Part shown: positions 53,479-56,100 of the stretch, one piece after another
Numbering within the stretch: the first letter of the stretch is position 1
Layout: each line of letters starts with the position of its first letter
DNA from: Lachnospiraceae bacterium
GTDB taxonomy: Bacteria > Bacillota > Clostridia > Lachnospirales > Lachnospiraceae
DNA length: 64,000 bases
Assembly: GCA_022794265.1 (NCBI GenBank)
Contig: JAAWEK010000003.1
Span: 248,001 to 312,000 of the forward strand
Reading direction: 5' to 3'
Notes under the pieces: generated by a model
Databases searched by the model: none
What the model was told of the DNA's origin: nothing
What the model saw: only the letters and a program-made list of their open reading frames with translations
Translations under genes and position numbers: made by a program

Positions 53479-54354
53479 TTAATCCGTCTCTGTTCCTTTG
53501 CGGCTACAACGTTTTCGTCCTGCAATCACAATCCCGATTCCTGTTATCACCATTATAACCGATACAATCTGTGAAACCGGGATATTAATAATTGGTGCAA
53601 TTAACTGGTCCGTACGAAGTCCCTCAATCATAAATCTTCCAACTCCATATCCAATAACATACCAGGCAAACATTTCTCCATGAAACTTTTTATATTTTTT
53701 GAAAATTAAAATCAAAATTAATAATACAAGATTCCATAAGGATTCATATAAAAAAGTAGGATGTACCTGAATATACTCTACTCCATCCACTACCTGAATA
53801 TTTTCTCTAACAGAATCCGATATTACACCACCCACTTCATCCAGCTTTATCTGCATGGCAAAGAGATTATCGGTAAATCCGCCGAATGCTTCCCGGTTAA
53901 CAAAATTTCCCCATCTGCCAATAATCTGTCCCAGCAGCAAACCTAAAATTGTAGTATCTGCTATTTGCCAGAAATTCAGTTTTTTTATCTTCGTATAGAT
54001 GACCGCCGTCAAAATTCCTGCCAATACACCGCCATAAATGGCCATGCCTCCATTTCTGGTCTTAAAAATATCCGTCAGATTATCCTTATACTGCTCCCAT
54101 TCAAATGCCACATAATATAATCTGGCGCCAATCACGCTAAAGACCAACAGCCATATGGCAAAATCATAATAATTTTCTACGTTCTGGCTGGTCTTCTTTG
54201 CTTCGTGGAAAACCAGCAACATAGCCAGTAACATTCCACATGCGATGATTAGACCATAATATGCGATTTCAAATCCAAATATAGTAAAGCTCTTATTTAA
54301 ATGCTCAATCTCAATTCCCAGGTGAACAAATCTGATGCTTGCTGATGCTGACAT
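53479..54354 (-). CDS. lgt: prolipoprotein diacylglyceryl transferase
   Basis: 291 residues, seven membrane helices. The signature GRWGNFVNREAFGG near 150, YYVAFEWEQY and VHPTFLYESLWN are present. Transfers diacylglycerol to the lipobox cysteine of prolipoproteins, including the four encoded in this window. Start at the ATG at 54354 after GGAGG. Single-gene unit. Confidence 0.97.
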   Translation of the reverse strand: MSASASIRFVHLGIEIEHLNKSFTIFGFEIAYYGLIIACGMLLAMLLVFHEAKKTSQNVENYYDFAIWLLVFSVIGARLYYVAFEWEQYKDNLTDIFKTRNGGMAIYGGVLAGILTAVIYTKIKKLNFWQIADTTILGLLLGQIIGRWGNFVNREAFGGFTDNLFAMQIKLDEVGGVISDSVRENIQVVDGVEYIQVHPTFLYESLWNLVLLILILIFKKYKKFHGEMFAWYVIGYGVGRFMIEGLRTDQLIAPIINIPVSQIVSVIMVITGIGIVIAGRKRCSRKGTETD

Positions 54355-54377
54355 TGTAACCTCCATCTATAATATTG

Positions 54378-54407
54378 TATATAATTGTAATGCTTTAATC
54401 GTGCCAA
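54378..54407 (-). promoter_or_regulatory. likely lgt promoter
   Basis: Minus strand TTGGCA, 18 bases, TATATA. The outer arm of the large palindromic element begins seven bases upstream of the -35. Confidence 0.5.
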
Positions 54408-54413
54408 ACTCCG

Positions 54414-54864
54414 ATTCGGGCAGAATTGCTACTGGTAGTTTGCTGGTTAGGAGATTTGGCTAGCCGGACGCAGAAGCGGAAGCTTTCGGGCACAGGCCGG
54501 CTCCTCTCCAAAAGCCAGGAAGTTCTAAGTGTTCTGCGGCAGGTATTCTCATGCGGACGCTACCGTCAGCAATTCGGCATCCATGCCTCAACTGCTGACT
54601 TTGTCTGACCTCGTGTCAGACAATAGCTGGGTGTTTCATGCAGAACACTAAGAACTTTCAGGCTTTTTTCGAAAGTCGCCAGCCTGTGCCCGAAAGCTTC
54701 CGCCTCTGCTGTTCCCTGCCAATTTTACAGAATCAGCTATTCTTTCATTACGTTGCTATTCAGTAGAAAACTTGTCACGGCTTGACAATGTAGATTCATC
54801 CAACGCACAGCAGTTATGTCCGACTGGTCTAATTACAAACCACCTGTAGCAATTCTGCCCGAAT
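54414..54864. repeat. large palindromic structured element (copy 2), possible ncRNA or miniature mobile element
   Basis: About 450 bases. Outer arms 54414-54442 and 54836-54864 pair at 27 of 29 positions. Inner arms 54470-54497 and 54682-54709 pair at 27 of 28, then 54510-54537 with 54640-54667 at 25 of 28. The tip carries two more hairpins, GTCAGCA/TGCTGAC (54565-54571 with 54593-54599) and TTGTCTGAC/GTCAGACAA (54601-54609 with 54615-54623). A side hairpin TTGTCA/TGACAA lies at 54772-54788. No convincing coding capacity and no obvious target duplication. Shares TTGGCnAGnCGGACGCA and CCTCTGCTGTTC with the element at 3162-3253. It fills most of the 648-base gap 54355-55002. Confidence 0.8.
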
Positions 54865-54909
54865 AATACCCACTATTATACCCCAATTGGTATTTCTTAG
54901 CAAGTTTTC

Positions 54910-55002: not shown

Positions 55003-56100
55003 ATGAAATTAGGTATCGTAGGTTTGCCGAACGTAGGCAAAAGTACACTCTTCAATTCACTGACAAAAGCTGGTGCAGAATCCGCAAATTATCCATTCTG
55101 TACCATAGACCCTAATATCGGTATTGTTACCGTACCGGATGAAAGGCTGAATAAATTAGCCGCTCTTTATGACTCTGATAAAATTACGCCTGCAGTCATC
55201 GAATTTGTTGATATCGCCGGACTTGTAAAAGGCGCATCCAAAGGCGAGGGGTTGGGAAATCAATTTCTCTCCAACATCCGTGAAGTGGATGCCATTGTCC
55301 ATGTTGTCAGATGTTTTGAAAATTCAAATGTCATTCATGTGGAGGGAAGCGTAGACCCTATGCGTGACATCGAAACCATTAATCTTGAATTAATTTTCTC
55401 AGATATTGAAATTCTGGAACGAAGAATTGCCAAGACATCAAAAGGTGCAAGAAATGATAAAGCCCTGGCAAAAGAACTGGATTTGCTGAATCGTTTGAAA
55501 GAATATCTTGAGGAAGGTAATCTTGCAAAGAGTTTTACTGTAAACGATGATGACGAAGCATTACTTCTGGCATCTTATAATCTGCTGACCTATAAACCGG
55601 TTATCTTTGCCGCAAATGTATCGGATGATGATTTGGCAGACGATGCCGCAGGCAATATTTATGTTCAGAAAGTCAGAGAGTTCGCTGCGAAAGAAGGTTG
55701 TGAAGTATTTGCCATATCCGCTCAGACCGAGCAGGAAATTTCCGAACTGGATGATGAAGACAAAGCCATGTTTTTGGAAGAGTTAGGACTGACAGAATCC
55801 GGACTTGACAAACTGATTAAAGCCAGCTATCACCTGCTGGGACTTATCAGCTATTTAACTGCCGGAAAACAGGAAACCCGGGCTTGGACCATCAAAGAAG
55901 GAACAAAGGCTCCGGGGGCTGCCGGAAAAATTCACAGTGATTTTGAACGCGGGTTTATCCGTGCCGAAGTTGTGAACTATCAGGATTTACTGAACTGCGG
56001 TACTTATGCCGGCGCAAAAGAAAAAGGTCTGGTTCGTCTGGAAGGAAAAGACTATGTTGTAAAAGACGGAGATGTCATTTTATTCCGGTTTAATGTTTAA
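55003..56100 (+). CDS. ychF: redox-regulated ribosome-associated ATPase YchF
   Basis: 365 residues, standard length. Obg-type G domain with GLPNVGKSTLFNSL and DIAGLVKGASKGEGLGNQFL; the NxxE-type specificity motif (ANVSDDD) replaces NKxD, as in ATP-preferring YchF/OLA1. A coiled-coil insert and C-terminal TGS domain (about 280-365) with TKAPGAAGKIHSDFERGFIRAEV are complete. Binds ribosomes and is linked to stress responses. Confidence 0.97.
   Translation: MKLGIVGLPNVGKSTLFNSLTKAGAESANYPFCTIDPNIGIVTVPDERLNKLAALYDSDKITPAVIEFVDIAGLVKGASKGEGLGNQFLSNIREVDAIVHVVRCFENSNVIHVEGSVDPMRDIETINLELIFSDIEILERRIAKTSKGARNDKALAKELDLLNRLKEYLEEGNLAKSFTVNDDDEALLLASYNLLTYKPVIFAANVSDDDLADDAAGNIYVQKVREFAAKEGCEVFAISAQTEQEISELDDEDKAMFLEELGLTESGLDKLIKASYHLLGLISYLTAGKQETRAWTIKEGTKAPGAAGKIHSDFERGFIRAEVVNYQDLLNCGTYAGAKEKGLVRLEGKDYVVKDGDVILFRFNV

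Follow-up and report, generated by a model that had tools for sequence, protein, structure and literature searches.

A TwoAYGGAY RNA carried by a dispersed, probably mobile palindromic repeat between lgt and ychF of a Lachnospiraceae bacterium

MITEs such as RUP of pneumococcus are short, TIR-bounded repeats that lack a long ORF and occur in dispersed copies, and REP/BIME sequences are dispersed intergenic palindromes, some of them arranged in inverted pairs. Among RNA systems, the motif of RsmA/CsrA is given as ANGGAN (PMC3791407; PMC7652899), and the SELEX consensus as RUACARGGAUGU (PMC7652899). The TwoAYGGAY RNA was proposed to be a CsrA-binding sRNA by Gardner and Eldai in 2015, by whose account CsrA-sequestering sRNAs have been identified in Gammaproteobacteria only (PMC4333381). 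For Bacillus subtilis, the FliW protein is described as holding CsrA in check (PMC7652899). In the open-access literature we found no report of TwoAYGGAY mobility or of a TIR-element setting for this RNA, nor of a two-module TIR-bounded arrangement or of a genome-wide association with hosts that have CsrA and flagella.

The locus described here lies in a stretch of 64,000 nucleotides of Lachnospiraceae DNA, hereafter the window, between lgt (prolipoprotein diacylglyceryl transferase, 53479–54366, minus strand; PF01790, E 8.2e-73) and the GTPase gene ychF (55003–56100, plus strand; PF06071, E 8.9e-39). A sequence-only reading had described positions 54414–54864 as a long nested palindrome with no convincing gene on either strand. 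Both statements hold. Our own sequence comparison recovers three nested arm pairs, the outermost at 54414–54442/54836–54864 (29 nt, 93% complementary), that of the long stem at 54470–54513/54666–54709 (44 nt, 86%) and an inner pair at 54510–54537/54640–54667 (28 nt, 89%), and the longest listed ORF within the palindrome has 60 aa. Folded as RNA, the region 54400–54880 has an energy of −215.9 kcal/mol; its shuffles average −134.1 (z −11.4), and none of 100 folds as well. At the neighbouring gene, the initial ATG of the lgt reading frame (window 54354–54366) overlaps a ribosome-binding sequence, ATGGAGG, and the second ATG, at 54354, looks the better start.

The same reading did not recognise a named RNA family, and in this it was mistaken. 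An Rfam search assigns the minus strand of 54503–54674 to TwoAYGGAY (RF01731) over the full model (1–168 of 168) at 112.6 bits (E 5.9e-21; gathering cut-off 43). This is the sole Rfam match at the gathering threshold across the entire window, and by its score the membership of the core in the family is secure. The structured noncoding RNA and the miniature mobile element had been offered as alternatives; since the RF01731 core shows strong covariation and is embedded in a dispersed repeat with TIRs, both are favoured at once, and the palindrome holds a structured RNA of a known family inside a dispersed, probably mobile repeat. We propose, with moderate confidence, that it is a small, probably non-autonomous mobile element carrying a TwoAYGGAY RNA, of a family likely to bind and titrate CsrA.

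The RNA forms a long stem, at the tip of which two hairpins display GGA loops of the CsrA type. Its conservation was examined in 55 of 110 collected copies, from 38 genomes, all of them found with the Rfam model (no genome contributed more than two, except the own genome with four besides the window copy; lengths 150–175). Covariation, which the sequence-only reading had named as a mark of an RNA, is strong in a shuffle test. Because the tested structure was predicted from the same 55-copy alignment, the test leans towards itself; within it, 34 of 35 pairs are altered on both sides and 90.3% of the paired cells can pair, compared with 58.2% in the shuffles, neither value being reached in 500 shuffles. 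One of the five covariation measures is unexceptional: further pair types number 107 versus 102.2 in the shuffles, 68 of 500 of which reach that value. Sliding the partners by 1–3 columns lowers pairing to 36–45%.

The TwoAYGGAY loops fit the CsrA motif ANGGAN. The C–G pairs that close them are retained in 55/55 and 54/55 copies, and GGA is present in loop 1 of 43, in loop 2 of 46, in both loops of 38 and in at least one loop of 51 of the 55, leaving four copies with GGA in neither; the base preceding GGA varies among copies. As just 38 of these model-found copies have GGA in both loops, the Rfam model itself does not demand it. In the window copy, hairpin 1 (loop region ACACGAGG, 54609–54616, minus strand) has lost GGA according to the alignment of copies, and hairpin 2 (loop region CATGGATGC, 54577–54585, minus strand; loop CATGGATG) keeps an intact AUGGAU, a loop of the CsrA type. 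A common loop variant without GGA is ACGAU. It replaces the GGA loop in both loops of four of the eight copies of one congener (G005) and of the sole copy of genome G128, whose CsrA looks normal despite these loops. The CsrA of G030, translated in a wrong frame, was left out of consideration.

The stem extends beyond the Rfam model, in the window by a 5′ outer arm at 54675–54709, copy-specific in sequence, and a 3′ outer arm at 54470–54502, both on the minus strand and both supported by the arm-pairing test. Across copies, an arm usually finds its best pairing in its own partner. This was the case for 10 of 11 copies in the own genome (G000), 8 of 8 in G005, 6 of 7 in G016 and 14 of 15 in G030, and for only 7 of 15 in G012, where the arms are alike between copies.

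The own genome (2.88 Mb, 34 contigs) contains 18 RF01731 matches, every one above the cut-off. Seven contigs start or stop within a copy (C5, C6, C11, C12, C13, C25 and C32), and repeats often make contigs break within them. The cores at C5, C11, C12 and C13 are identical at 163–166 of 167 positions (98–99%), and the sequence outside the element is unrelated. The 28-nt TIR is found at 10 sites of the genome with up to three mismatches, a reversed control giving none. When the fetched loci were scanned less strictly, 15 ends came up; they adjoin 11 of the 18 matches, and TA stands immediately outside 9 of the 15. In the window, the TIR on the lgt side (54414–54442, plus strand) is complementary at 27 of 29 positions to that on the ychF side (54836–54864, minus strand), the latter supported by its partner arm and by the genome TIR scans. 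The element has some of the features by which MITEs are recognised: TIRs (27/29), no long coding sequence and many dispersed copies.

The complete form consists of a pair of 28-nt TIRs around two divergent TwoAYGGAY modules. Three divergent module pairs were assembled in the own genome (C6, C24 and C30). The only one assembled from TIR to TIR, C30:47923–48587, has the order TIR, module, spacer, second module in opposite orientation, TIR; a TIR is recognisable at one end of the C24 pair and at neither end of the C6 pair. The window element (54414–54864) aligns with the C30 element minus one module, and its arms, its fold and this alignment give the order TIR, module (RNA on the minus strand), spacer, TIR. 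The word CGGAC, which flanks the missing module in the C30 element, is present once at the window junction (54818–54826). A single CGGAC at this point suggests that the module was deleted at its hairpin base, most likely between two such words.

Other copies show further rearrangement. Single modules without a TIR occur on C28 and C9, and other eroded copies are present in the own genome. At locus L151 (1476–1528; G000 C8:35162), two TIRs lie back to back with no interior over about 52 bp, seemingly an end stage of interior loss. Locus L106 (C30:111838–112087) holds a chimeric module that combines the arms of two module types with an extra inserted hairpin. Divergent pairs are also found in G016, G069 and G239. 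In the G016 pair (C47, locus L186), the cores are identical at 101 of 112 positions and the 5′ arms at 20 of 41; the opposite modules of the C6 pair (L102) of the own genome have inner cores that are likewise 101/112 identical, again with different arms. Such near-identical cores between different arms suggest gene conversion or inversion between modules. In the G239 pair the cores differ too (62/121).

The preferred reading would involve transposition in trans. A transposase for it was sought in one family, DDE_3 (PF13358), of which the own genome (assembly rated 91% complete) gave no member, so an IS630-type helper was rejected. Carriage by known plasmids or phages was also rejected, since at E 1e-5 the complete element matched nothing in the plasmid or the phage collection. 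Three elements can be read at both ends; their flanking di- or trinucleotides are TTG/TTG (C30 element), TA/TA (solo TIR pair) and GA/TA (window copy), and we saw no clear target duplication.

It is possible, if doubtful, that the window copy is dead, a decaying and functionless remnant. One of its modules is deleted, GGA is gone from loop 1 and further eroded copies exist in the same genome, all of which fit decay, whereas the remaining stems are still long and well paired. With GGA in just one of its two loops, the window copy may be a weak or decaying site, and the function that we propose concerns the family.

Five of eight congeners (G002, G003, G005, G006 and G008) keep lgt and ychF adjacent in the same arrangement with no element between them; in G004 a gap of about 950 bp separates the two genes, and G001 and G007 have them rearranged. 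The divergence of these species is too great to define an exact empty site. At 80 ychF loci, 50 of them with lgt, the element had no blastn match at E 1e-3. RF01731 has no match in seven of the eight congeners with the stricter filters of the congener, family and class scans, which lose weak matches; the eighth, G005, has eight, none of them on the contig with its lgt–ychF pair. A second short hairpin repeat of about 110–125 bp, with copy-specific outer arms of its own, lies beside three of six TwoAYGGAY loci inspected in G005 (L125, L130 and L142), within 350 bp upstream of the core.

The search of Lachnospiraceae genomes, which the sequence-only reading had advised, did find copies: 54 of 348 genomes (54 of 333 genera) have an RF01731 match, 52 of them above the cut-off, and 44 of the 54 carriers have two or more. 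In the class, 36 of 391 genomes have a match (27 above the cut-off), and 30 of these 36 carriers belong to 11 other families. The per-genome counts in both scans are lower bounds, at most seven candidates per genome having been scored. A search of the other 347 family genomes for the TIR, allowing up to three mismatches, gave no site, and the TIR-bounded form is therefore established for the window species only.

Carriers of the RNA are, with few exceptions, CsrA-bearing. Within the family, 52 of the 54 carriers encode CsrA, compared with 132 of the 294 non-carriers (Fisher p 5.5e-14, kinship ignored). Outside it, 25 of 30 carriers do so, compared with 10 of 50 non-carriers (p 2.9e-8, kinship likewise ignored); just 21 of these 30 carriers exceed the Rfam cut-off. 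In a control, however, flagellar FlhA was found in 53 of 54 family carriers and 131 of 294 others; four genomes have CsrA without FlhA and four FlhA without CsrA. FlhA fits as well as CsrA, so that CsrA and motility are not separable, and CsrA as the sole correlate was rejected. The own genome encodes CsrA (PF02599, E 3.9e-25) directly after FliW, and by hand count this protein has L4 and R44, residues named in PMC7652899. Judged from the loops, binding of CsrA by TwoAYGGAY is plausible, as already proposed, and the most likely function of the family would be to bind and titrate CsrA.

A rather unlikely alternative is that the repeat is a selfish DNA palindrome of the REP or MITE kind, whose hairpins are read as DNA by a transposase and whose RNA fold and GGA loops are by-products. 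Dispersed, lineage-specific copies with TIRs would be expected of such a repeat, and so would the lack of an own promoter signal and of any gene-orientation preference, described below. Its stems are also nearly free of G–U (23 of 1694 standard stem cells, against 38 A–C mismatches). This low share is not decisive: a small control of 14 E. coli tRNA genes gave three G–U and three A–C and did not discriminate, and the argument for DNA-level pairing from G–U rarity was dropped. In the arms, moreover, G–U exceeds A–C (148 versus 93). Against the selfish palindrome, the loop GGA and the closing C–G are kept on one strand while nearly all stem pairs change, and near-restriction to CsrA-bearing, flagellated genomes is unexpected for a plain DNA repeat.

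The RNA sense of the element is the minus strand, the same as that of lgt. Between 54200 and 55050, six promoter-like sites were found against 1.9 expected, the best for lgt being TTGCTA-17-TATAAT (10/12; 54903–54875, minus strand). The sequence-only reading had placed an lgt promoter next to the element; this promoter-like site is upstream of the element, which therefore lies between the site and the lgt start. A transcript predicted from this site would start at about the element edge and cross the RNA strand into lgt. We propose that insertion took place downstream of the lgt promoter and ahead of the gene, and that the RNA of the window copy is probably transcribed within the lgt leader.

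Among 105 copies, promoter-like sites lie upstream of 24 and downstream of 28, with no upstream excess, and a dedicated own promoter was rejected because the upstream and downstream scores are alike. The orientation of neighbouring genes shows no preference either (−− 18, +− 16, ++ 14 and −+ 12, with 7 of 67 copies unresolved), and on the 60 resolved copies a role as cis-regulator of particular genes was rejected. Both results are unlike the expectation for a dedicated sRNA gene; copies, if transcribed, thus probably use neighbouring promoters. A cis-acting RNA controlling the neighbouring gene, here lgt, is very improbable: the element does lie between a promoter-like site and lgt in the sense of lgt, and Rfam labels RF01731 'Cis-reg', but neighbour orientation shows no preference, five congeners lack the element at lgt, and Weinberg 2010 (PMC2864571) scored cis-regulation 'n'.

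Returning to the mobile element with a CsrA-binding RNA, a more tentative extension, which we regard as no better than possible, is that such elements act as mobile CsrA sponges. They would spread in flagellated, CsrA-bearing Clostridia and add further CsrA-binding sites to leaders and to transcripts between genes; the CsrA–FliW flagellin switch would then be tuned by how many copies there are and where they lie. If true, these would be CsrA-titrating RNAs outside Gammaproteobacteria that spread by transposition and are not fixed genes. With loops of the CsrA type, many copies and probable mobility, and found mainly in CsrA-bearing, flagellated genomes, this RNA makes the proposal of Gardner and Eldai directly testable and suggests that a regulatory RNA can be propagated in the manner of a repeat. 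Annotators should bear in mind that an RF01731 match may belong to a dispersed repeat and does not by itself mark a cis-regulator of a given gene.

In comparison with CsrB, RsmY and RsmZ, TwoAYGGAY presents the same ANGGAN hairpin loops, and Rfam clan CL00106 comprises RF01731 and CsrB. In contrast to these RNAs, it has two sites per module (one intact in the window copy) and occurs in many dispersed copies, with no own promoter signal detected across 105 of them. REP/BIME palindromes are likewise dispersed, intergenic and partly in inverted pairs, as some copies of the element are, but the core of the element is far longer, at about 170 nt. Like MITEs such as RUP, the element is short, TIR-bounded and dispersed, without a long ORF and with TA outside 9 of 15 ends; it differs in having no matching transposase in the own genome (DDE_3 searched), and its interior is a conserved RNA family that also occurs in genomes without a TIR match. 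With the TwoAYGGAY RNA as described by Weinberg et al. 2010 (PMC2864571), the window copy shares a full-length model match and the two-hairpin tip. It departs from that RNA in a loop 1 without GGA, in a stem that runs past the Rfam model with copy-specific arms, and in its setting, an element bounded by TIRs that in complete form carries two modules.
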